DNA of 20,676 nucleotides, from the IMG/VR virus record IMGVR_UViG_3300037189_002397, positions 1 through 20,676 of that record, one strand, 5' to 3'. The DNA is from a virus. Both the position numbers and the translations under genes were made by a program. The first letter of the stretch is position 1. Each line of letters opens with the position of its first letter. Below, piece after piece: positions 1,140 through 18,945 of the stretch. The notes under the pieces are model-generated. The model was not told where the DNA came from. It searched no databases and worked only from the letters and a program-made list of their open reading frames with translations.

Positions 1140-4100
1140 TTACCCCTTCAAAAACTTTAGAAGTTCGTTGTTCACATCTTCAACATCGTCCACCGCACCT
1201 CCCTGTGCGAACGGGGATGCAAACATCTTTTCCTGTGACGGGTTAGCGAAAATGCTGTTCCAGTCGTAAATGTACCCAATCTTGGCAGGGTCAGCAGCTT
1301 TCACTGTGACTTGCTGGCCCCCGGTGTCACCCGCCTGCCCCAACATGCTCATCATGCTGTTGAGGTTACCCATGCGCTGAGTCTTGAGTGCAGCCGCAGC
1401 TTGGGCTCGACGCGTGGCCTCTGCTTCGTTTTGCTGGGCTTGGCGCGTAGCCGCTGCTTCGTCTTGCACGGCCTTGAACACGCCGGTAGGTGCCCATTTG
1501 GAACCCGCAGCGGGGTTGTAGGTGAACGGGTCGTTGGTATCTGGCTTGTAAGTTGGGTCTTGTGATCTGAGATACGTCTCAATCGCAACCTTGTCCTTCT
1601 GGTCAATTACCTTGTCGCCGTTGTAGTCGTACTGTGCATCGTACGCACCCTGAGTCTCCAGTAGGTTAATCACGGCGTCCAGATCGGACTGCGTGGCTTG
1701 CTGGGTACCGCGACCAACTACATCCTGCAACGCGCCGATTTGGGTCTGCACCTCCCCCTTAGCAGCGGCAATAGCCGTATTGAGGTCAACACCCTGATTT
1801 GTAAGCTGTGTAGCAAGAGCTTTTTGTTCCGCCGTTAAGGCGGCGTACTTGGTTTGTAGGTCAGTAGATACGTCGGCGATGCCGCTTTGCAACGTAGTAA
1901 CCGCTTGGGCAATCGCTGTTTTTAGGTCAACACCCTGATTTGTAAGCTGCGTGGCAAGCGCTTTTTGTTCAGCCGTCAAGGTGTCGTACTTGGTTTGCAA
2001 GTCCGCCTGTACCGCAGCAATCTCTCTACCGAGGGCCGTCTGCACCCCCGAGAGCTTAGAGGTCAGCGTTGCAGCATCGGTCTTCTGAGCATCCGCTACC
2101 GTCTCAATAGCCTTCTGGAGTGCGGCATCACGGGTCATACCCGCCTGCTCGTTCAGGGCGACCTGCGCGAGGATGTCCTTCTCTGTCTGGGCCAGATCAG
2201 CTTCTATGCCTGCTATCTTTGTACCAAGGCCCGCCGCTGTCGTGTTCAGCTTCGTCAATATGGACGCAGCATCGGTCTTCTGGGTAGCTGCTACTGTCTC
2301 GATAGCCTTCTGGAGGGCGGCATCGCGGGTCATACCCGCCTGCTCATTCAGGGCGACCTGCGCGAGGATGTCCTTCTCTGTCTGGGCCAGATCAGCTTGT
2401 ACGCCTGCTATCTCTCTACCGAGGGTCGTCTGCACCCCTGCGAGCCTAGAGGTCAGCGTTGCAGCATCGGTCTTCTGAGCAGCCGCAACCGTGCTAATAG
2501 CCTGCTGGAGTGCGGCATCGCGGGTCATACCCGCCTGCTCGTTCTTCGCTACCTGCGCGAGGATGTCCCTCTCTGTCTGGGCCAGATCAGCTTGTAGCGC
2601 CGTGTTTACTTTGTCGATGTGCGCGTATAGACCTGTGGCAGCGGCCCCACCTGTACCAGCACTGCCTACGATCTTATCGACCGTTGCCTTAACGTCATCC
2701 GCCGTGAGTCCTGCGTCGCGCAGGTCTTGAATGGCTTTGTCCACAGATGCAAAGTTTTGGTCTGTGGATGTGCCTAACGCCGCAATCGCTTTCTGTAGAT
2801 CAGCTTTGGCCGTATCTACCTTCAAGGCAACTTTGGCAACCTCCAACCCAGTATCGGCCATCGACTTTGTGAGGTCGGTACGCACCAGATCGATTGCGGC
2901 TTTGGCTTCCGCGCTGATGCCGCCAGCGCTCATCTCATCAAGCTGCGCCATGATGGAGTTGTACTGCGCAGTGGGAAGGTAATCAGTGGCTTTAGCAGTC
3001 AGCCCCGACTCGTCGTATTGGCCCAATAGCTTTTTAATGTCGTCAGCCGTGGGCTTATTCAGCCCCAGTGCAGCGTATGCGGCTTTGACTTCGCCCTCAT
3101 CGACCATGCGGGGGTCAACGTAAGCACCGATAGCCGTAGCCTGCTCAGCTTCATTGACCTGCCCAACAAACCTTTTTATTTCCGCATCAGAAGGCTTGTA
3201 GCCCTGATCGGTCAGATACTTCTTGGCTTCGTCAAACGTCACTTGGCGTGGGTTAACGTAATTGGTAATTGCCTGCGCCTGTGCGGCCTCAGTTTTATTA
3301 CCAACAAACTGTTTGATCTCATCCGCAGAGGGTGTGTAGCCCTTGGCGGCAAAAAATGATTTGGCTTCGTCGGAGTTGGTTGCCTTGAGGTCAAATTCCG
3401 CCTTGGCCGCAGTCGTAGCAGCAGCTTCGTCTTTCTGACCTACCAAGTTGGCAGCTTCTGCATCAGTCAGCGTATAGCCTTCGGCAGCGGCAGCGGCTTT
3501 GACTTCTGCAAGGTCGAACACTTTGGGGTCAACGTACGCCTCGGCGCGGCTGTCCAACGTCGTGTCGGTGCCTTTGCCAGTCAGTGCTTTTACGTCTGCA
3601 TCGGAGTACGTGTAGTCATTACGCTTGGCCAGCGCTACAGCCGCTTCGTCACTGCTCGTGTAGTTGGTATTGTCAATGGTGTTCATCAAGTTGGACTTGA
3701 TGGTGTTATCCGTGACACCAAACCTAGCCAGTGCAGCGTCGGCAGCGGCAGGGTTACCCTTGTTGGTCTCCAAAATGTTGGCGATCTGGGGGTTGCCTTG
3801 GATAGCGTTGGAGATTACATCCCCGGTGCGACTTGCGCCGTATGCACCCCCAGCAATCGGGCCACCGGCAATGACGCCAAACGCAGCGGCCTGCGTAATC
3901 TCTTTGGCAACGTCACGAGTCTTATCGAGCTTGTAGAGTTGACCTTCAAGCGCAGCTTGCGTAAGACCTTCTTCACCGCCCTCAGACACACCTTCTTTGA
4001 TGGCGATCTTGGTGCCGGTCTTAGCAAAATCCCCGAGGGCTTGCATCGCGTCGCCCAGCCCCGTACCGGTTCTACCCAGAAGAGCTTTCTCAAGGGCCGC

Positions 4101-6734
4101 ACCACCAATACCCATCGACGCGGCGGTAGTAGCCGCAGCAACGAACGCTTGGCGCTGCGCAATATCCATAGCGATCTTGTCAGCGTCCGCAGGAGTCTTA
4201 CCCACTTTAATCGCGGTCTTGTACGCTTCGTTGTACGCGCTAGTTGCCGCGCCACCAGCCGATTCGGCGATGTCTGTGGCGATAGCTGCTGTCATACCTG
4301 CGGCGGTGCCCATCTTGGCGGCAACAGCTTGGCCATATTTCAACGCAAGCGCAGCACCCTTGGCACCTCCTGCGGCTACGCCACCAATCAGAAGCGGGGC
4401 GATTTCTTGGATGCCTTCAACACCAACGTACTCTGCAACGAATTGCAATGGGGCGGACTTGAACGCACCGTAGATTGCTTTGAGCGTACCGCCAACACCT
4501 TTGGCGTCGCCAATTATGGTGTTCATGTTCCTAACGGCTGCTTGGTACTCCGCAGTATTACTTGCTTTGCCAAGATCGTTCAACGCGGTTGCAAACTTGC
4601 CCATCTTCGTAGTGCTTGGCGCAACACCCAGCAACACAGACATGCCGTTGATGGACTCAAGGAAACCACCGCCCGCTTTTAGGACGTTGGCAGATGCGTT
4701 GATAAGCGTTGAGTTGCCCGACTGCTGTGCCCAGCCAACTACCGTCTTGGCTGCGTCAATCATGGCTTGACTTACAGGCCCGTTGGCGGCACTCGCATTC
4801 CCCATCGAGGCCATGGCAAGAATCTTCTCCTGCCCAGTAGGCGGCTTCTTGTTAGTCGCGGTGGCTTTAGGCAGTTCGTAAGTGCCAGTGGTTGGATTCC
4901 ACGCGGCCACGCCCGCGCTGGGGTTGTCTTCAATCCAAATGGGACGACCTTTGGCGTCGTAGACCAACGACGCAGCGCCGTTATCGAACGCCTCAACCGA
5001 GGCCAACTTGGTGCCCGCAGGTGGGGTGAAGTCGGCGGGCTTGTTCCACTCTCCGTACGAAACGCCGCTACCCTTAATTCTAAGCACGTTGTTTTGTTGG
5101 TCGCTCACCAGTTTATTTACCGATGAAGTGTTACCGTTGATAACATCTTGGATAGACGCGGCCTTGAGCGCTGAGATATTGTTGCCGTAGTTATTGTCAA
5201 TGTTGTCCAGAATCTTGGAGATCATGGCTGGGTCAGCCGTAGCCAACGTCACGCCCTTACTCTCCAGTGCCTGAGTAACCAGACGAGTGCGCTCTGCGAT
5301 AACAGCCGGTTCAGCGGCTTTATTGTTTGTCGGTGCACCTTCAAACTGACCCTTGGACAAGAAGTGCTCGTATGGGTCAACATCCGCGCCGAGTCCGTTC
5401 AATTCGCGGTACTGGTCGGCGTTGAAGTTCTCATCCATCGCTTCGACGAATGCGCGATTACTAGCGCGGTAGATCGGGGCAAGTGCATCAGCCAGACTAT
5501 CTGTCTCGGCGCTAAATGCTCGGATGGCTTTTTCGTAGTCCCCGGTTTGCACCGCATAGTCTTGCTTCAACGCGTCAAGTTCACTACCATACTTAGCAAG
5601 TTGTGGTTGGTACGTCCGGGTGTAGAGTTGGTTAAGCATCTGTACAAACCCGTTGTAGTTTTGGATGGCAGCATTTGCGGCTCTGCCATTTGCTTCCGAA
5701 GGGTCGTCCTCGAATTTTTTGACTGCGGCGACATACGCATCGCTGAGTTTATTTTGAATCTCTAGTTTACTTTGGAGTTCCGTAGCAACCCCGTTGTACT
5801 TGGCGGCAGCAGTTTTCTGCGCCTCCATGTTCGCATCTAATTTAGTTGCGACTGTGTCTGCGGTTCCGAACGCAGTTTTGACTGCTGCGGTTGCCGACTT
5901 AAACGCATCCGAGGCCATATCGCCAAGAGCTTTTGTGCCAGCCCGTGTCATGGCAGCTTGGATGACATTAGATGCGTTACCACCTGTCAACGCAGCAGTA
6001 GCCGTGCCCATGAGTACATCCGTCAAGACGGCGCGCTGAGTGTCGTCGAGCTTGTTGCCGTCCGGGTCAAACGACTTGATTGCATCAGTCACGACGCCAG
6101 AGGCTTTGATGACGCTACCTATGACGGCGGCATCAACAGGTCTACCCGTGAGTTTTGCAGCGATGGCCGATTCAATGCCCGCTCGCACGGTCGGCGGCAA
6201 CTTTGAGAAATTACCCCCAGTTGCCTCATTAACTTTGCCCAGCACCGCGCCGGTTGCTGCGCCCACCCCCCCGCTAACGAACGCTTTAAGAGGGTCTTGC
6301 CCCGTCACAATTGCAACAGATGCAGCGGATGCGCCTCTACCAATAATTTGGCCCGCAAGGGCACTGTCGGTGGCTTTGGCAGCAGCAGCAGTAGCCGTCT
6401 TGCCAACGTAGTCGCCAACCTGCTGGGAGACATACGCTTTAGCCGTGGCCGTCAATATATCGCCCAGATCACCACCCTTTATGGCAACGTCCGCGCCTTC
6501 AATAAGCGGAAGCGTCCATTGCGCGCCGGGGATCATAACAGCAGCAATTTGCGCGATGGTTTTTAACGGATTGTCAAGCGCGCTCTCAATGACATTGCTG
6601 ACTGTTTTTAGAACGGGGTCAATGAGCTTGTCAACGACAAAATCGTTCAGCTTAAAGATGGCGTTACCAACCGATGATACGACGTCACCAACTGCGTTAG
6701 CCACGCCTTTAACAGCCTTTACAACTGCACTCAT
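1140..6734 (-). CDS. Giant repeat-rich probable internal/ejected virion protein (1864 aa)
   Basis: I choose ATG at 6734: it overlaps the previous stop in TAATG and has AAGGG six bases upstream. A more upstream in-frame start (6803) would run deep into that gene. The N-terminus (about 1-300) and 780-1000 are Ala/Gly-rich, with weakly hydrophobic helices such as APLLIGGVAAGGAKGAA. Near residues 448-463 is DVDPYEHFLSKGQFEG, a motif type seen in large surface proteins. Residues 1027-1253 carry five 46-residue repeats (GYxPSxxEIKxFVG, YVDPR). Residues 1383-1671 carry three 65-residue and two 47-residue coiled-coil repeats. Residues 1703-1714 form an EF-hand/dockerin-like loop. The C-terminus holds YDWNSIF, FASPFAQGGAV and LLKFLKG, the last two familiar from phage virion proteins. 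Size, composition and place fit an ejection protein. I see no lytic transglycosylase or polymerase motif. A tape-measure role is the alternative. Confidence 0.8.
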   Translation of the reverse strand: MSAVVKAVKGVANAVGDVVSSVGNAIFKLNDFVVDKLIDPVLKTVSNVIESALDNPLKTIAQIAAVMIPGAQWTLPLIEGADVAIKGGDLGDILTATAKAYVSQQVGDYVGKTATAAAAKATDSALAGQIIGRGASAASVAIVTGQDPLKAFVSGGVGAATGAVLGKVNEATGGNFSKLPPTVRAGIESAIAAKLTGRPVDAAVIGSVIKASGVVTDAIKSFDPDGNKLDDTQRAVLTDVLMGTATAALTGGNASNVIQAAMTRAGTKALGDMASDAFKSATAAVKTAFGTADTVATKLDANMEAQKTAAAKYNGVATELQSKLEIQNKLSDAYVAAVKKFEDDPSEANGRAANAAIQNYNGFVQMLNQLYTRTYQPQLAKYGSELDALKQDYAVQTGDYEKAIRAFSAETDSLADALAPIYRASNRAFVEAMDENFNADQYRELNGLGADVDPYEHFLSKGQFEGAPTNNKAAEPAVIAERTRLVTQALESKGVTLATADPAMISKILDNIDNNYGNNISALKAASIQDVINGNTSSVNKLVSDQQNNVLRIKGSGVSYGEWNKPADFTPPAGTKLASVEAFDNGAASLVYDAKGRPIWIEDNPSAGVAAWNPTTGTYELPKATATNKKPPTGQEKILAMASMGNASAANGPVSQAMIDAAKTVVGWAQQSGNSTLINASANVLKAGGGFLESINGMSVLLGVAPSTTKMGKFATALNDLGKASNTAEYQAAVRNMNTIIGDAKGVGGTLKAIYGAFKSAPLQFVAEYVGVEGIQEIAPLLIGGVAAGGAKGAALALKYGQAVAAKMGTAAGMTAAIATDIAESAGGAATSAYNEAYKTAIKVGKTPADADKIAMDIAQRQAFVAAATTAASMGIGGAALEKALLGRTGTGLGDAMQALGDFAKTGTKIAIKEGVSEGGEEGLTQAALEGQLYKLDKTRDVAKEITQAAAFGVIAGGPIAGGAYGASRTGDVISNAIQGNPQIANILETNKGNPAAADAALARFGVTDNTIKSNLMNTIDNTNYTSSDEAAVALAKRNDYTYSDADVKALTGKGTDTTLDSRAEAYVDPKVFDLAEVKAAAAAEGYTLTDAEAANLVGQKDEAAATTAAKAEFDLKATNSDEAKSFFAAKGYTPSADEIKQFVGNKTEAAQAQAITNYVNPRQVTFDEAKKYLTDQGYKPSDAEIKRFVGQVNEAEQATAIGAYVDPRMVDEGEVKAAYAALGLNKPTADDIKKLLGQYDESGLTAKATDYLPTAQYNSIMAQLDEMSAGGISAEAKAAIDLVRTDLTKSMADTGLEVAKVALKVDTAKADLQKAIAALGTSTDQNFASVDKAIQDLRDAGLTADDVKATVDKIVGSAGTGGAAATGLYAHIDKVNTALQADLAQTERDILAQVAKNEQAGMTRDAALQQAISTVAAAQKTDAATLTSRLAGVQTTLGREIAGVQADLAQTEKDILAQVALNEQAGMTRDAALQKAIETVAATQKTDAASILTKLNTTAAGLGTKIAGIEADLAQTEKDILAQVALNEQAGMTRDAALQKAIETVADAQKTDAATLTSKLSGVQTALGREIAAVQADLQTKYDTLTAEQKALATQLTNQGVDLKTAIAQAVTTLQSGIADVSTDLQTKYAALTAEQKALATQLTNQGVDLNTAIAAAKGEVQTQIGALQDVVGRGTQQATQSDLDAVINLLETQGAYDAQYDYNGDKVIDQKDKVAIETYLRSQDPTYKPDTNDPFTYNPAAGSKWAPTGVFKAVQDEAAATRQAQQNEAEATRRAQAAAALKTQRMGNLNSMMSMLGQAGDTGGQQVTVKAADPAKIGYIYDWNSIFANPSQEKMFASPFAQGGAVDDVEDVNNELLKFLKG
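1593..1628 (-). other. EF-hand / dockerin-like calcium loop in the giant virion protein
   Basis: The encoded 12 residues are DYNGDKVIDQKD, residues 1703-1714. They match the canonical DxNxDxxxDxxD calcium loop, with acidic or Asn ligands at positions 1, 3, 5, 9 and 12. The following helix (KVAIETYLRSQDP) resembles half of a type I dockerin. Only one copy is visible, so a full dockerin pair is not supported. Confidence 0.6.
1722..2003 (-). repeat. Two tandem 141-base coding repeats (47 aa each)
   Basis: Units at 1863-2003 and 1722-1862 each begin with the codons for DLQTKY and share TAEQKALATQLTNQGVDL. They lie directly after the three 195-base repeats in the giant virion gene and extend the predicted coiled coil. 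The heptad-like Ala/Leu/Gln pattern suggests a fibrous or helical rod. Confidence 0.85.
2004..2588 (-). repeat. Three tandem 195-base coding repeats (65 aa each)
   Basis: Units lie at 2394-2588, 2199-2393 and 2004-2198. Each starts DLAQTE(R/K)DILAQVA and contains NEQAGMTRDAALQ. The landmark GCCAGATCAG recurs at 2191, 2386 and 2581, exactly 195 bases apart. Units two and three share about 80 bases with only about two differences. Recent duplication or ongoing homogenisation is therefore likely. The protein product is predicted helical and coiled-coil. Confidence 0.9.
2976..3656 (-). repeat. Five tandem repeats of about 138 bases (46 aa) in the giant virion gene
   Basis: Units lie at 3516-3656 (47 aa), 3378-3515, 3240-3377, 3102-3239 and 2976-3101 (last one short, 42 aa). 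The consensus is about (D/S)xxEVKxxxAxxGYxxxxAEIKxFVGxxxEAxxxxxAxxYVDPRxV. Protein similarity is clear while the DNA has diverged, so these repeats look older than the neighbouring 195-base set. The function is unknown. Confidence 0.8.
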
Positions 6735-7189
6735 TACGCACCCTTCAACACGACGTACGCACGCATATCCCCGGTGTTCAATTTGTACACTTGCATGCCC
6801 CATTCTTGGAGTTCGGGGCGGCGAGCGATCGCGTTAAACAACTGCAAAATCTTCTTGTCTGAGAAATCGCTGGTCATGCGCTCAACCCCCTGTTCCGGCA
6901 ACGCTTTGACGTACTTGACGGAGTTTTCTAAATAGTTTCGCGCAGTATCCGCGTTAAACGCACGCATGGCAACTTCTTTACTGTCCTCACTGTAATGCGA
7001 CATGAACACGGTGTTACCGATCTGCTCGACTTTGGTGTTGGGCATGGAGCCTTCAGCAACAATCGACAGGATAGCCGCTTGCAGGGTTACGTTCTTGGGT
7101 AGTTGGCCAGCTTCTTTGGCCTCCCCCACGCTTCGTGCAATGATGGTGGAGGTGTCTAATTCCTCTTTGTTGCTATCGACAAGCTGCAT
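6734..7189 (-). CDS. Conserved-looking phage protein of unknown function (151 aa)
   Basis: ATG at 7189 follows the ketosynthase stop by two bases, with a strong TAGGAG seven bases upstream. The stop overlaps the start of the giant virion gene (TAATG), so the gene is locked between the two. The protein is soluble, with no signal peptide or membrane segment. Visible features are GNTVFMSHYSED (about 58-69), then RAFNADTARNYLENSVKYV, then KKILQLFNAIARRPELQEWGMQVYK and a C-terminal strand-like RAYVVLKG. This alternation is compatible with a small alpha/beta fold. I recall similar proteins next to internal virion genes in podovirus-like phages, but that is memory only. It could serve the ACP-ketosynthase pair or the ejection proteins; nothing in the sequence decides. 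Confidence 0.75.
   Translation of the reverse strand: MQLVDSNKEELDTSTIIARSVGEAKEAGQLPKNVTLQAAILSIVAEGSMPNTKVEQIGNTVFMSHYSEDSKEVAMRAFNADTARNYLENSVKYVKALPEQGVERMTSDFSDKKILQLFNAIARRPELQEWGMQVYKLNTGDMRAYVVLKGA
6741..6745 (-). promoter_or_regulatory. Ribosome binding site that fixes the start of the giant virion protein
   Basis: On the minus strand AAGGG lies six bases before ATG 6734. It supports this start over the in-frame start at 6803, which would overlap the preceding gene by 70 bases. Confidence 0.6.
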
Positions 7190-7191
7190 AG

Positions 7192-8310
7192 TCAGGCTCC
7201 TACGGACAGCACTGCGGCTGAGTAAACATTCCCCATGCCCGCCGCGAGGCTAAGCACCAATCCTTCAGGAGTCGGTAGGGACTCCGATAGGAACACACGG
7301 TCATCCTCAGTCCGATTTTTGATTGCTGGCACGGTGCCTCCCCACAAAGAATCGACCAAGAGCGCGGTTTCCAGCAGCCCACTGGCTCCCATTGTATGCC
7401 CAATGACAGGTTTGTAGGAAGTGGCAACGAAGCCATCCGGGAGGATTTGCGCTAGGGCATTGCGTTCTGACACGTTATTAGACGCGGTTCCAGTCCCGTG
7501 TGTTTTGACGATACGTACAGCGTTGGTGGCCACACCCGCAATCTCAATCGCCCCCTGCGCGGCTTTGACAAACCCCAGCCCAGAATCAAGCTGGCCCAGA
7601 GCGTTAGTGCAGGGCTCGCTGGCGGTGTACGCCCCCATGAGTTTGGCAAGCGGCTTGAATCCTGACAACGCCAGCCCCTCACTGGACTCAAAAACAGCGA
7701 ACACCGCGCCTTGTCCTACATGGAAACTACCGTTCTTGGCGTCAAAGGCGGATGGGAGGATGCCTTCCTCGGCCTCTCGCTTGGCGGTCAGGCATGCCTT
7801 GGTCTCGCCGAAGAACTCCAGCACCAGATTTGATACCGCATCCTCCACGGACAGGACGACTACTCGGGTAAATCCATAGAAGTTCAGCAGAGTCTGCACG
7901 TCCATAAGCGCCTTGAGGCTGGATGCGCAGGCTGTCGAGTCGGTCACGATGTGGTCAGACGCCCCGCATGCTTGGGCAATACGGCTGGCGTAGACCTGTG
8001 TCAGCGTCAAAGGTAGCGGTTTGTATTGGTATGACAGGCGGGAGTTCCGGGGATTCGCCGGTACGCCAGCGAAGTGAGCGTTGCCCGCTGCCAAGATAAA
8101 TGCCGTCTTTTTGGACGGGGTATCCCGCAGGAGTTTGGTCAGGGTGGGGTCGAGCACCTTCTCAGCAAGCCGGTGCGGCGGGTAAAACACCCCCGTGGAT
8201 ACGCGAGCGTAGGTGTCAGGTAGCCAATGTACCCGCTGGGGGAAGGAAATGTCGTCAAGCAGTTCTGTGGTTTCTGTGGAGATGGTTCGGGTATGGGTCA
8301 ACGCGATCAT
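7192..8310 (-). CDS. Beta-ketoacyl-ACP synthase (KAS I/II, FabF-like), phage-encoded
   Basis: Thiolase-fold condensing enzyme expected to join an acyl group on its active-site Cys to a malonyl-ACP unit in the cytoplasm. The triad is visible: Cys128 in DSTACASSLKAL, His271 in KTHGTGTASNN and His305 in KPVIGHTMGASG. Lys300 lies five residues before the second His, as in KAS enzymes. FDAKNGSFHVGQGA (about 189-202) matches the family's FDxxRDGFVxGEGA block, with Gln for Glu. At 372 residues it is shorter than typical FabF (about 410). The N-terminus lacks the usual VVVTGLG-like strand. The C-terminal gatekeeper region (normally NSFGFGGTN) reads AAGMGNVYSA. The ATG overlaps the ACP stop (ATGA), with GGAGGGG five bases upstream, so translation is probably coupled and strong. 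A ketosynthase is well supported. Substrate and product are not known. Confidence 0.9.
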   Translation of the reverse strand: MIALTHTRTISTETTELLDDISFPQRVHWLPDTYARVSTGVFYPPHRLAEKVLDPTLTKLLRDTPSKKTAFILAAGNAHFAGVPANPRNSRLSYQYKPLPLTLTQVYASRIAQACGASDHIVTDSTACASSLKALMDVQTLLNFYGFTRVVVLSVEDAVSNLVLEFFGETKACLTAKREAEEGILPSAFDAKNGSFHVGQGAVFAVFESSEGLALSGFKPLAKLMGAYTASEPCTNALGQLDSGLGFVKAAQGAIEIAGVATNAVRIVKTHGTGTASNNVSERNALAQILPDGFVATSYKPVIGHTMGASGLLETALLVDSLWGGTVPAIKNRTEDDRVFLSESLPTPEGLVLSLAAGMGNVYSAAVLSVGA

Positions 8311-8588
8311 TGCATCCCCTCCATGGCGGCATCGACAGACTCGGGCTCTTTGGTCTTGTGCTGGTGCACTTGCGCCATCAGTTCAGCGGGGGTCGTGAAC
8401 GTGAAGTGCTTCGCTATCTCGTCGTCGATACCGTAGATGTCTTCCAAGTGGATGAGCATCATCAGCCCGTCCATGCTGTCTAGCCCCGTTTCGGAGAACG
8501 GAATCTCCATCGTTTCGATGGGCGTGTAGTCGGTAAAGGCGGGGCGTACGTGACGCGCCAACCGGTTAAACAGTTCAAGTTCGTCCAT
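8307..8588 (-). CDS. Acyl carrier protein, phage-encoded (93 aa)
   Basis: Small acidic helical carrier that would hold acyl chains on a 4'-phosphopantetheine arm. The attachment motif is GLDSMD, with Ser38 the expected modified residue. It is followed by the helix-II pattern LMMLIHLEDIYGI and a short acidic loop (DDE), as in AcpP. Length fits ACPs (about 75-90), plus a C-terminal tail of about 15 residues. I choose ATG 8588 because AGGTG lies five bases upstream; the more upstream TTG (8645) would add 19 non-ACP residues. The stop overlaps the ketosynthase start (ATGA), which strongly suggests the two work together. No phosphopantetheinyl transferase is visible, so activation would depend on the host or on a gene outside. 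DSM in place of the usual DSL is a tolerated variation. Confidence 0.88.
   Translation of the reverse strand: MDELELFNRLARHVRPAFTDYTPIETMEIPFSETGLDSMDGLMMLIHLEDIYGIDDEIAKHFTFTTPAELMAQVHQHKTKEPESVDAAMEGMQ
8316..8322 (-). promoter_or_regulatory. Strong Shine-Dalgarno of the ketosynthase, inside the ACP gene
   Basis: Minus-strand GGAGGGG ends five bases before ATG 8310. It lies within the last codons of the ACP gene and is one of the strongest ribosome sites in the window. It suggests substantial synthase translation coupled to ACP translation. Confidence 0.6.
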
Positions 8589-8665: not shown

Positions 8666-9016
8666 CTACCCGATCTTCCAGTTGGTTCCGTCGGAATACA
8701 CAGGTACCTTGTTGGCCCCGCCGCCAGCCACAGTTGACGCAAAGGTAGTTGCGTTGGCATCGGACACGAACGACCGCGCCCCCACGCCAGAGGTTACGGC
8801 GCTTGGCAGGGTAGCCACGGTGTATACCGTTGTTGGAGGGATAACGCCGTTCCCAGCGTTCAACTGGTTAACGATGGTTTGCAAGCGGTTGAAGTACAAC
8901 CGCAAGATGTTGTTCAACTGATCTTGATACGCACGGTCGTATTCTTCGCGTGCCTGCGGCAGCGCAGGCGGTGCAATCTTTTGAAGCTCAAACTCGGTAG
9001 TGACAATAAAGCTCAT
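8666..9016 (-). CDS. Small structural protein, probable tail/fibre-linked (116 aa)
   Basis: ATG at 9016 overlaps the stop of the 700-residue gene (ATGA), so the two are translationally coupled. Residues 20-55 are charged and probably helical (EEYDRAYQDQLNNILRLYF). They are followed by a Thr/Val/Ala-rich part and a C-terminus with GARSFVSDANATTFAS and VPVYSDGTNWKIG. The latter pattern is familiar from phage fibre and tail proteins, where it forms a short beta domain. Helix plus beta-tail organisation suggests a trimeric or collar-type accessory attached to the preceding structural protein. No enzyme motif is seen. The gene ends before the 77-base gap that precedes the ACP gene. Confidence 0.75.
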   Translation of the reverse strand: MSFIVTTEFELQKIAPPALPQAREEYDRAYQDQLNNILRLYFNRLQTIVNQLNAGNGVIPPTTVYTVATLPSAVTSGVGARSFVSDANATTFASTVAGGGANKVPVYSDGTNWKIG

Positions 9017-11115
9017 CGACGGCCATCCGAACGCATGTCAATTCGAGGTGCGCCCAACTGCCAGTTCACACCCAATTCGGTGGACTCAAACTTGATGGAC
9101 ATCTGGCGACCACGCACCCGAGTGAAAATCTGCCCTGTGAATTCCTCCACCGGCAGCGTCGCAATCCGCGTAACACTTGCAAAACTCTCGTTGGCCACGG
9201 AGTGATTAGCGTCGGTGGGCTTGTTGACCGAGTACCCAGAGCCAGAGTTCTTCAGCGGCAACAGGTACATCGTGGCGCTTGGTGGAGTCGCCGTAGACCC
9301 CTCGAACGTAACATCGGGCAAGACGCGCCACACAAACATAAAGTTGTGGCCGTCATCCAAGTCAAACTGCGCAGAGGTAATAGACGCCGTAATCGGCAGT
9401 GTGGTGGCCGTGGCGTTGTCATCCACCCCGTCTTCGTGGTTCACAAGGTTGTTGTAGTACGTCGCCGCTAGTGGGTAGTCACGCAGTCCAGAATCCAGCC
9501 ATGCAGTACGGGCCATGTCGCCGTAGTACCAGACGTTTTCCATGTAGTTGTAGATAACGTACTTGTCGATGTCGGTCGAGCCTGCGGAGCAGTAGAACCA
9601 CCAGATTTCGTTGAAGCCCTCGTTGGTGCCCGAGCACACCTGCGCGTACTGCGCGGTGTTAATGTCCTCAAACACATAGCGGCGCAAGTCACAGTTAAGT
9701 GTTTGCGTGCGGCCATCGTATTTGTAGAACTTGTCTTTGCCCATCCAGTAGGACACGCCGTTGGAGTACGCCACGGAATTCTGGCCCACGATAGAAATGT
9801 TCTCGCCCACAATCTGAGCACCCCAGACGATGGGTGCGCCCACGTACTGAAGCGAATACAGCGCGGCGTCAGTCCACACCAAAACTTCTTGCCGTGACTG
9901 GGTGGCTGTAATGATTTCAGAGCCGCGAGACAAGCGCAGAAAACCCGCTTGGTTGGTCGCTGCGGGAGTCCAGTTGAACGGGTCTTCTTGATCAGACCAG
10001 CGAATTAGCATCGGGTCAACTGTGGCCGAGCCATAGTCATTGCAGCCGAACGCAAACACAAAGCGGCTGATGTCAGACACCAACAAATAGTTTTGCTCGA
10101 TTGGTACGTCCGTTGCGCCCCCAAAGTCCGCCAACATATACCCGTTCGACAGAATACGGCAATTGCCCACAGCCGCGCCAGAGACGGCAATGAGTGCCCC
10201 CGCAGGTGTCAGTGAGATGTTGAACGCGGAGCCCGAGGCGTTGCGCACGTAGTACAACTCCCCCGGAATAATGCCTACTGGCATGGTGGCCCCGGCGTCA
10301 GGCGCGAAGCGCAAGGGCGTACCGTCAGCGTATTCGGCAGCGGCAGTGATTACCGTGGGCGTGGCCACCGTAGCAGCAAACGTACCGGGGACGTACCCAG
10401 ACGTGGCATCCCAGTAATAGATCGGGCCTTCACGTGGGCCGAAGATCAAGTCTTCGCCGTAGTTCTGCTGGCTCCACAAGCGGATAGCGTCCGTAGACGC
10501 TTCACCGATGCCCCAAGGGCCAGCACCCCAAGGGCCAGCACCCCAGCCTACCAACGGCACCGCAGCCGCAGGGCCAACATTGATTTGATACAGCGCGTAC
10601 ACAGTACCGCCACCGGTCGCGTTCGACGTAGCGTCTGAGCTTGCCGTGATGGTGTACGTGGTGGCCCCAGTGACTGTGATCTCGTACTGGCCAAAGATGG
10701 TTAGCCCGCCCACGGCGGTTGCGTTGTAGAACGTCACAAAGTCGCCGTCTATGTACCCGCCATTGGCATCAGTCACCTCTACAACGGGGGAACCAATGAA
10801 TGTTTCAAACGGGTTAGTCAGCGTGACCTGATCACGAAACGGGGTGATGTCGTTATAGACACCGCCTGCCGCAAGGTAAAACTTGAGGTTGGTACCCACG
10901 CCGATCAGGTTGATGCCACCAAGGGTTACCCAGTTCCACAAGGAACGGCAAATGCCTAGAAAGGTGGATGAAGAGATACGTGTCCAGCCGCCAATCTTCT
11001 CGGGCGTGCCTTGACGAAAGCGAACCTTCTCGCTCTCATACCAGCCTCCTTCGTTGGTGTACCGCGTGTTCTCGCGGTTTACACCGGGCTTGAGCAGTAT
11101 CTTCTTCAGTGGCAT
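9013..11115 (-). CDS. Large tail structural protein, nozzle/hub-like (700 aa)
   Basis: ATG at 11115 lies one base after the endolysin stop, with no good Shine-Dalgarno, so coupled translation is likely. The protein is Trp/Tyr/Gly-rich and predicted mostly beta. The N-terminus KKILLKPGVNRENTRYT, then GGWYESEKVRFRQG and EKIGGW (39-44), is a pattern I recall from podovirus-like tail proteins. An Ig-like insert (about 105-175, YIDGDFVTFYNATAVGGLT) precedes a WGAGPWGAGPWG repeat (near 190-201). Later segments such as WTDAALYSLQYVG, ISIVGQNSVAYSNGVSYWMG and FNEIWWFYCSAGS look like beta-propeller blades. Size, position and propeller look suggest the tail nozzle (T7 gp12-like role), but homology to T7 gp12 is not shown. 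The alternative is a distal hub. Confidence 0.7.
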   Translation of the reverse strand: MPLKKILLKPGVNRENTRYTNEGGWYESEKVRFRQGTPEKIGGWTRISSSTFLGICRSLWNWVTLGGINLIGVGTNLKFYLAAGGVYNDITPFRDQVTLTNPFETFIGSPVVEVTDANGGYIDGDFVTFYNATAVGGLTIFGQYEITVTGATTYTITASSDATSNATGGGTVYALYQINVGPAAAVPLVGWGAGPWGAGPWGIGEASTDAIRLWSQQNYGEDLIFGPREGPIYYWDATSGYVPGTFAATVATPTVITAAAEYADGTPLRFAPDAGATMPVGIIPGELYYVRNASGSAFNISLTPAGALIAVSGAAVGNCRILSNGYMLADFGGATDVPIEQNYLLVSDISRFVFAFGCNDYGSATVDPMLIRWSDQEDPFNWTPAATNQAGFLRLSRGSEIITATQSRQEVLVWTDAALYSLQYVGAPIVWGAQIVGENISIVGQNSVAYSNGVSYWMGKDKFYKYDGRTQTLNCDLRRYVFEDINTAQYAQVCSGTNEGFNEIWWFYCSAGSTDIDKYVIYNYMENVWYYGDMARTAWLDSGLRDYPLAATYYNNLVNHEDGVDDNATATTLPITASITSAQFDLDDGHNFMFVWRVLPDVTFEGSTATPPSATMYLLPLKNSGSGYSVNKPTDANHSVANESFASVTRIATLPVEEFTGQIFTRVRGRQMSIKFESTELGVNWQLGAPRIDMRSDGRR
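10511..10545 (-). repeat. 15-base tandem repeat encoding WGAGP
   Basis: CCCCAAGGGCCAGCA occurs at 10511-10525 and 10526-10540 on the plus strand, followed by a partial third copy. It encodes WGAGPWGAGPWG in the 700-residue tail protein. It is likely a slippage-prone loop or blade edge. Confidence 0.9.
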
Positions 11116-17337: not shown

Positions 17338-18945
17338 TTATGTGGCAACTTGTTGCCAGCCCGCAGTTTGCGTATCACTCACGACGACCCATGTGGGCGT
17401 CTGAGCATTGTTGACATTTTGCCAGTTGGCGCTCTGACTATCGTCTATCTGCCCCCAGACATTGACTTGCCCGATCTCTCCAGTTGCAAATACTCCAGTA
17501 ACCAGAACCGTTACACTTACCGGGCCAATTGAAAGTACCCCCGTAGACGAACTGGCAGAATTTCCAGATAGGCCAACCACAACATTTGGGGCAATCAATC
17601 CGGCTAATGTTGTTGCTGAAACTCCAGCTACTGAACGCAAGATATTTCTAGCCAACGCCCCCGCAGCAGTGGTTGCAGCCCGCCCAGCAATTGCAAGCGC
17701 GACACTGGGCGTTACAGACCCTGCGGATGCAGCAGTTGAAAGCCCCGAAAGACTGGCCGTTACACTTGTAACTGCGACAACTAAACCGGCAGATGTAGTC
17801 GCCGCATTCCCTGTAATTTCTTTGCTTATATCAACAGATGAAAATGCACCGGCAGAGGCTACAGTTGATTGGCCATCAATACTTACGGATATATTGGTTG
17901 ATGCGACTGCGCCAACAGACGATGCAGAGGAAGAGCCTGTTGTGTTAAGGCTGATGCCGGGAGTTGCTACTCCGGAAGTTGTTGTAACTGATTGGGCTGG
18001 AACAGTTGCCAAAGGCGTGTAGGTGATGACCAACGCCCCGATTGACCTAGCGCCTCCAGTAGAGGTTGTAGATGCTGCGGCACCGCCACCGCCAGCACCG
18101 TACAGACCGCCAGCACCGCCAACTGTAGTGCCAGTACCATCACCAGCACCGCCACCACCGCCGCCAGAAAAGACATAGGTCGTGGCTGCGTTTGTGCCCG
18201 CCCCGCCTGCGCCACCAGATGTGCTTGCTGCTCCACCAGTACCCCCAGCACCAGCACCAGTTCCTGCCGTGCCTCCAGTTGCGGATGTACCCGATCCTGC
18301 TCCACCACCGTTACCGCCGCCACCGCCGCGACCAATTGCTGTTGACGTAGTACTATTTGCCCCGCCAGCGCCACCCGCACCATTTGGCCCTGCGGCACCG
18401 CCGCCACCACCGCCACCGGCTCCAGAATTAGCACGGCCATTTCCGCCAGAGCCACCAGCGAATTGAACGGTTGTGTAGGTTCCACCACTAGCGCCGGGTG
18501 CGCTCTCAACAAAAATGTTAGGTGTAGGGGCGCTCCCACCCGGCCCGCCGCTAACCCCGCCACCTGCCCCGCCACCATTAGCAGTAACACCTGTTCCATA
18601 TATGGCAACAGGCGGTGAGCCACCATCGTCGCCTTGGAATACGGTAAAAAGTGTATATTGCCCAGATGTGTTAACAGAAGAAAGTATTGCTACTTTTTGT
18701 CCATCAACACCATTCTCTGTTAGAGAATATAACTTGAGCGGGAAATTGGCAACGCTTTGATATGATCCCCCGCCGCCGCCACCACCGCTTGCACTGCCCG
18801 TATTTGTAGCGCCAGTGTTGCCGGGGCCGTATGCCTCAAATTTGTTAGCGGCATCATTCCAGTCCGCCGGGATAGTCCAAGTTTCTGTACCTGTAATGAC
18901 GATCTGCTTGTCGCCATTTGCAAGTGTTGTTGTTATCTGGGACAT
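17338..18945 (-). CDS. Glycine-rich adhesin-like tail protein with three repeat regions (535 aa)
   Basis: ATG 18945 has only a weak ribosome site. Residues 17-48 (GTETWTIPADWNDAANKFEAYG) introduce a very Gly-rich region (50-300) with many GGxGG and GGGGGG runs. It closes with ARSIGALVITYTP. This opening and closing frame is typical of phage glycine-rich domains, and some such adhesins fold as polyglycine-II helix bundles. Residues 319-489 hold about eight repeats of 20-23 residues (AxTxAGxxxPxVxVxLxG), probably a beta-structured stack. The tail 490-533 has IGQVNVWGQI and three 11-residue repeats. Likely a receptor-binding tip or fibre-associated protein. Surface display and receptor are inference; no enzyme motif is seen. 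Confidence 0.75.
   Translation of the reverse strand: MSQITTTLANGDKQIVITGTETWTIPADWNDAANKFEAYGPGNTGATNTGSASGGGGGGGSYQSVANFPLKLYSLTENGVDGQKVAILSSVNTSGQYTLFTVFQGDDGGSPPVAIYGTGVTANGGGAGGGVSGGPGGSAPTPNIFVESAPGASGGTYTTVQFAGGSGGNGRANSGAGGGGGGGAAGPNGAGGAGGANSTTSTAIGRGGGGGNGGGAGSGTSATGGTAGTGAGAGGTGGAASTSGGAGGAGTNAATTYVFSGGGGGGAGDGTGTTVGGAGGLYGAGGGGAAASTTSTGGARSIGALVITYTPLATVPAQSVTTTSGVATPGISLNTTGSSSASSVGAVASTNISVSIDGQSTVASAGAFSSVDISKEITGNAATTSAGLVVAVTSVTASLSGLSTAASAGSVTPSVALAIAGRAATTAAGALARNILRSVAGVSATTLAGLIAPNVVVGLSGNSASSSTGVLSIGPVSVTVLVTGVFATGEIGQVNVWGQIDDSQSANWQNVNNAQTPTWVVVSDTQTAGWQQVAT
17347..17445 (-). repeat. Three 11-residue repeats at the C-terminus of the glycine-rich protein
   Basis: The repeats read DDSQSANWQNV, NNAQTPTWVVV and SDTQTAGWQQV (residues 501-533). 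All keep Q at position 4, W at position 8 and V at position 11. The regular Trp spacing suggests a short binding or assembly element. Confidence 0.8.
17479..17991 (-). repeat. About eight degenerate 20-23 residue repeats in the glycine-rich protein
   Basis: Residues about 319-489 repeat a pattern of x(S/A)Txx(A)G, four to six residues, then alternating Val/Ile/Leu and a closing Gly. Examples are QSTVASAG, LSTAASAG, RAATTAAG and VSATTLAG. Repeat borders are approximate, and DNA identity is low. Confidence 0.7.

Follow-up and report, generated by a model that had tools for sequence, protein, structure and literature searches.

A pair of genes for an acyl carrier protein (ACP) and a beta-ketoacyl synthase (KAS) lies on the minus strand inside the late operon of a phage, in a stretch of 20,676 nt (IMG/VR virus record IMGVR_UViG_3300037189_002397) that was analysed at its full length and is called the window here. 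As judged from sequence, the active sites of both proteins are intact, which supports the prediction, made already in a preliminary description of this DNA, that they form a minimal acyl-condensing unit; the enzyme superfamily is known and the arrangement, owned by phages, is new. The pair usually stands just before the genes for a protein of predicted GNAT fold and an ejection-type protein, an order suggesting that such phages supply a fatty group themselves, by making it or by attaching it. We favour, with a probability of roughly 0.4, the reading that phage acyl-ACP feeds the GNAT-fold protein as an acyltransferase, which would then acylate the ejection protein or another virion protein.

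The operon and its predicted condensing pair

The ACP gene (8307..8588, minus strand) encodes 93 residues with a predicted phosphopantetheine site at Ser38, and its stop overlaps the start of the KAS gene (7192..8310, minus strand; 372 residues) by 4 nt (ATGA). The overlap had been described correctly, though the word "fused" used along with it does not hold for what are two overlapping ORFs; the pair is compact, at about 1.4 kb. Two nucleotides past the KAS stop begins the gene for a 151-residue protein with a predicted GNAT fold (6734..7189, minus strand), followed by that for the large ejection-type protein (1140..6734, minus strand), whose ORF is open from 6803 and whose relatives share a start at 6734 that overlaps the GNAT stop. 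These four genes are tightly packed; the label "ejection-type" is taken from the operon position and from homologues, there being no family match. Just upstream of the ACP gene lies a gene for 116 residues with no assigned family (8666..9016, minus strand; our group F7, at position -2 in 48 loci), and beyond it that for a virion structural protein (9013..11115, minus strand; PHROG 3287, our family F3 with 118 loci), in the place that corresponds to the "phage stabilization protein" of phage MW202545. PHROG matches and the comparison with MW202545 confirm that the pair sits between structural and ejection genes, as first reported. Consensus promoters around the operon are no more frequent than chance would give, and terminators are rarer than that.

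Two further features of the window concern other proteins or regions. The ejection-type protein (1140-6734, minus strand) contains tandem repeats of about 34 residues, such as VNPRQVTEAEARKFFADRGYTPTDAEVRQFVGQ, which are clearer in a relative of 2400 residues (L386:8459-15661), with roughly ten copies. A 535-residue protein with a long glycine-rich stretch and no Pfam match, encoded at 17338-18945 (minus strand), is probably a tail fibre.

The KAS matches both Pfam ketosynthase models above the cut-off of 20.8 bits (Ketoacyl-synt_C, E 4e-14, 53.1 bits; ketoacyl-synt, E 3e-6, 27.4 bits) and, over residues 4-324, PHROG 35856 (E 6e-42), a phage family of unknown function of which it is, by sequence, a member or a very near relative. 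Its AlphaFold model (pLDDT 87) resembles FabF and type II PKS ketosynthases with Z of about 40 over about 350 aligned residues, so that a thiolase-type fold of the KAS I/II kind is predicted. In an alignment with FabF and FabB of E. coli, Cys128, His271, His305, Lys300 and Glu282 occupy the catalytic sites, in agreement with the earlier report of an intact triad of Cys128, His271 and His305, and the five residues are invariant in 134 distinct phage KASs. At two positions these 134 sequences depart from FabF, again without variation: the gating Phe is replaced by Met359 and an Asp by Asn279. The match to the FabF equivalog TIGR03150 (E 1e-25) reaches 90 bits compared to a curated cut-off of 493.75, and that to the AmcF model (369 positions; E 1e-21) is weaker and far below its cut-off; on these profile scores the enzyme is not FabF proper.

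The ACP (...ETGLDS(38)MDGLMM...) scores 18.7 bits against Pfam PP-binding, under the cut-off of 20.8 that one relative's ACP clears with 26.2 bits, and matches PHROG 5934 "acyl carrier protein" with E 0.002. Owing to the low profile score, its identification leans on the DSxD motif, which with its Ser at the start of helix II is invariant in 17 ACP representatives, on the pairing with the KAS, and on the presence of a Ser-bearing ACP directly upstream of the KAS in all 132 distinct relatives with readable upstream DNA (from 134 distinct KASs). The motif GLDSMD with Ser38 had thus been read correctly, and the conserved pairing that the preliminary description proposed to look for in databases is found. 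Of 25 KAS loci that seemed to lack an ACP, 23 proved to carry one, and at the remaining 2 the contig ends too early. The phage ACPs diverge from AcpP, with an invariant Met at the position of an acidic residue in its helix II (DSLDTVE).

A complete phage-encoded pathway can be rejected for the relatives covered. Searches with Pfam PF01648, PF13561, PF00698 and PF07977 found no PPTase, SDR-type ketoreductase, malonyl transferase or FabA/FabZ-type dehydratase in 20 large relatives per search, including a 63-kb genome (contig ends overlapping by 4.2 kb) and the circular MW202545, while well-known bacteria were matched in the same searches. For 64 ORFs of the 63-kb genome, a set without ACP and KAS, no lipid enzyme was seen among the 25 families listed of the 29 Pfam families matched. 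The earlier remark that neither a malonyl source nor ACP activation is encoded therefore extends to the relatives searched, and host enzymes must activate and load the ACP. The same complete relative (G014, L261-L264) encodes a GroES-like Cpn10, a DarB-like antirestriction protein and a DUF2201/VWA metallopeptidase-like protein.

Spread of the pair and its two operon homes

Relatives of the KAS are encoded on at least 585 IMG/VR contigs (a count of contigs, not of independent species), and the ACP-KAS pair is present in well over 100 viral loci with KAS identities of 45-95%, a degree of conservation that rules out chance ORFs. The preliminary description had named a single occurrence with decayed active sites as evidence against its view; instead there are hundreds of contigs, with the catalytic residues unchanged throughout the distinct KASs compared. 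Among GenBank phages there is one match, MW202545 (Manatee Spring, 57 kb), where the gene is annotated as 3-oxoacyl-ACP synthase. Further "phage" matches, from Listeria, Enterococcus, Staphylococcus and others, are 23-31% identical, belong to unannotated records and are probably bacterial FabF. MW202545 carries a row of six tRNA genes (L028:36797-37372); no tRNA genes were found in the pieces of two large relatives. Cellular genomes gave a single close KAS match, the Balneolaceae MAG contig JAGYJQ010000016.1, which has the phage order ACP-KAS-GNAT-ejection and is either a mis-binned phage or a hint at the host. In a quick tree with long branches, from which we claim the separation and not the exact sister group, a branch with a support of 100 separates the 62 phage KASs, as a single clade, from 15 cellular KASs.

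The pair lies in the late operon, as in the window, at 124 of 173 loci, and behind a SNF2-like helicase gene in a replication operon at the other 49. Late expression, which had been inferred from the window, is thus not general, and a strictly late or structural role is weakened. On the KAS tree parsimony gives four changes of place, at least three of them forced by well-supported branches. Within a single group of phages the pair thus travels as one unit, and its expression need not be late. In two of the replication-type phages the structural gene, a small gene and the genes for the 151-residue homologue and the ejection-type protein still follow one another, the GNAT remaining in the late operon and the ACP-KAS pair being absent from its place there. 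At the replication-operon loci, the gene behind the pair encodes a protein of about 101 residues (L014:4677-4982 and relatives; family F9) that has a sigma-region-4-like look and no NCBIfam family match.

The GNAT-fold neighbour and its link to the pair

Four roles had been put forward for the pair at the outset (diverting host acyl chains, building a short ketoacyl product, altering the host membrane, acylating a virion protein) with none chosen, and the predicted GNAT fold of the next gene product and its co-travel with the pair were missed. The model of this 151-residue protein (pLDDT 92.5) matches an acetyltransferase with Z 11.9 and rmsd 2.6 over 126 residues, GNATs fill the match list, and among the viral matches are an "Internal virion protein A" and a protein of the DUF2824 type. 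A GNAT fold is predicted on this basis, though the fold alone shows no function. Searches of Pfam, PHROG and NCBIfam gave nothing convincing for the family. In the family alignment, NADTARN follows strand 4 in place of the CoA-pyrophosphate glycine loop, and His65, which is not at the N-terminus, is nearly invariant. Enzymes of the RtxC family, for instance HlyC and ApxIC, are GNAT-like, lack CoA-binding elements and acylate lysines from acyl-ACP (PMC8339906). By analogy, the missing glycine loop would fit the use of acyl-ACP, and the phage protein may work in an RtxC-like manner; we claim no family membership, and the RtxC (HlyC-type) family gave no supported Pfam match. MadA (YiiD), which also has a GNAT domain, might have offered a precedent for malonyl-ACP decarboxylation and was set aside, since that activity sits in its hot-dog domain (PMC8666670). 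GNAT proteins have been described next to the internal virion proteins of podoviruses; T7 gp13 is a presumed case, for which a part in virion morphogenesis has been suggested (PMC6775973).

The GNAT gene adjoins the KAS in 116 of 173 loci. For one GNAT subfamily the KAS is adjacent in 79 of 80 loci. One record with a GNAT and no KAS (L329; 36.8 kb) is probably a fragment. A second GNAT search found the KAS adjacent in 32 of 54 loci; among the rest, 3 have it elsewhere in the record and others are on short contigs. On three contigs the ACP directly abuts the GNAT with no KAS between them; the longest, of 65.6 kb, encodes no KAS anywhere and has exact 124-bp end repeats, making it probably a closed genome, which implies that the ACP can dispense with the KAS and stay with the GNAT. 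Pairwise distances among ACP, KAS and GNAT are correlated at 0.77-0.87, compared to only 0.40-0.44 for their correlations with the upstream structural gene. Distances of the GNAT and the ejection-type protein are also coupled (partial 0.40), so that physical linkage alone could explain part of the co-inheritance of the GNAT. Ratios of dN/dS against four near relatives (KAS 0.06-0.08, ACP 0.09-0.16, GNAT 0.05-0.12) indicate that the set is under purifying selection.

Possible functions and known systems

In the mechanism that we propose, host AcpS would put the phosphopantetheine arm on the phage ACP and host FabD would load it with malonate, with which the phage KAS would condense an acyl starter; the chain may then be finished by host reductases and a dehydratase. 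The GNAT-fold protein, a candidate acyl-ACP acceptor and transferase, would move the acyl group from the phage ACP to an amine (lysine or N-terminus) of a virion protein, with the ejection-type protein as the putative substrate, and acylation would help that protein to enter membranes. Phages with the ACP and no KAS would use host acyl chains directly. We put forward more tentatively the full version, in which, throughout a widespread phage group, phage-made acyl-ACP and the GNAT-fold acyltransferase fatty-acylate the ejection protein itself, and the attached lipid lets this virion protein cross the host envelope or insert into it. An acyl-ACP module is favoured by the invariant catalytic residues, the Ser of the ACP in each readable relative and the low dN/dS, and its link to the GNAT by the replication-type relatives whose GNAT has stayed in the late operon. 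Counting against virion acylation are the 49 loci where the pair is away from the ejection genes; additionally, a T7 gp13-like GNAT stands beside ejection genes where no ACP is reported, and the phage GNAT may thus have another job.

The main rival, possible in our view though doubtful, is that the pair is an elongation unit working on host malonyl-ACP and host reductases, altering host lipids in quantity or in chain type during infection, in the service of replication, envelope changes or lysis, with the GNAT gene a mere neighbour. Such lipid remodelling would suit a pair that shifts whole between late and replication operons and so works without an adjoining GNAT, as well as a KAS with what appears to be a full FabF-type site, and viral fab genes have been reported as lipid AMGs (PMC10653327). 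However, an elongation unit would not account for the apparently closed genome in which an ACP adjoins a GNAT and a KAS is missing, an ACP of the phage's own would be needless if host AcpP is abundant, and the replication-type relatives still keep the GNAT. In a further reading, ACP, KAS and GNAT could together make an N-acyl amine or a short ketoacyl compound serving as a host signal or inhibitor. GNAT-fold enzymes of the LuxI and FeeM types use acyl-ACP for small molecules and provide a precedent, and models of the type II PKS kind, AmcF among them, are matched by the KAS as well. That match is weaker than the one to FabF, no further biosynthetic enzyme was found in the relatives searched, and the location by the ejection gene would be left without explanation, so we regard a small molecule as unlikely.

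Less probable again is that ACP and KAS act as decoys or structural parts that bind host ACP partners or virion proteins without catalysis. The Met in helix II of the ACP and the replacement of the gating Phe and an Asp in the KAS would agree with this, but five invariant catalytic residues in 134 KASs and the Ser in 132 ACPs are not expected of proteins that do not catalyse. A recent, incidental capture of acpP-fabF from a host has in its favour that the same order is present in E. coli, and is nevertheless highly improbable: the phage clade is separate from the 15 cellular KASs, none of which is nested in it, relatives occur on hundreds of viral contigs, and the only close cellular match carries the phage gene order, such that the tree and the cellular scan essentially exclude it. 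The preliminary description had argued against a passive pick-up, a position that the separate clade, the number of contigs, the invariant residues and the constant pairing all strengthen. Acylation of a virion protein by the GNAT-fold protein remains the reading that we prefer.

No paper was found that describes this ACP-KAS pair for phages, or phages that supply their own fatty group, which is weak evidence, as only openly licensed literature was covered. Phages with a lone ACP are known, no function being given for it (PMC5463345), and fab genes have been reported from viruses (PMC10653327, PMC12783922); these, like the prophage sets taken up below, are different or too sparsely described for comparison. 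The function of PHROG 35856 is not annotated, and to it the present analysis adds the ACP pairing, the GNAT link and the active-site census. With FabF/FabB and AcpP the phage pair shares the fold, the catalytic residues and, as found in E. coli, an ACP gene immediately before that of the KAS; it differs in a KAS that is about 20% identical and about 40 residues shorter, with Met for the gating Phe and Asn for Asp, that belongs to a separate phage-only clade, and that has no other fab genes with it. AmcF/AmcG with AmcB (cispentacin) and the actinorhodin KS/CLF likewise appear to resemble it as ketosynthases on a private ACP, and the AmcF complex performs one C2 extension on its ACP (PMC10698177); however, AmcF requires its partner AmcG, whereas no second KAS-like gene lies beside the phage KAS.

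The RtxC enzymes resemble the phage GNAT in a GNAT-like fold, predicted for the phage protein, without CoA-binding elements. They take acyl groups from acyl-ACP to a membrane-active protein of a neighbouring operon (PMC8339906), and the corresponding phage donor and substrate are proposed ones; in contrast to the phage set, they use host ACP with no dedicated KAS, and the phage protein has no sequence match to them and its conserved His is not N-terminal. T7 gp13-like GNATs, internal virion protein A and DUF2824 proteins share the GNAT fold beside ejection genes (PMC6775973), though no adjacent ACP-KAS pair is reported for the phages concerned. The present locus opens two questions, namely what job the GNAT-like protein beside podovirus ejection genes performs and whether phages acylate virion proteins. 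Rhodobacteraceae prophages with fabG-acpP-fabF sets also have an ACP and a KAS in a viral region (PMC8224337), in an order resembling the bacterial fab cluster, whereas the clade described here is phage-only and lacks fabG. Viral fab genes are usually taken as borrowed host metabolism; here a phage-only KAS lineage is locked to its own carrier, depends on host enzymes for all other steps, and is linked by its location to DNA ejection in most of hundreds of viral contigs.
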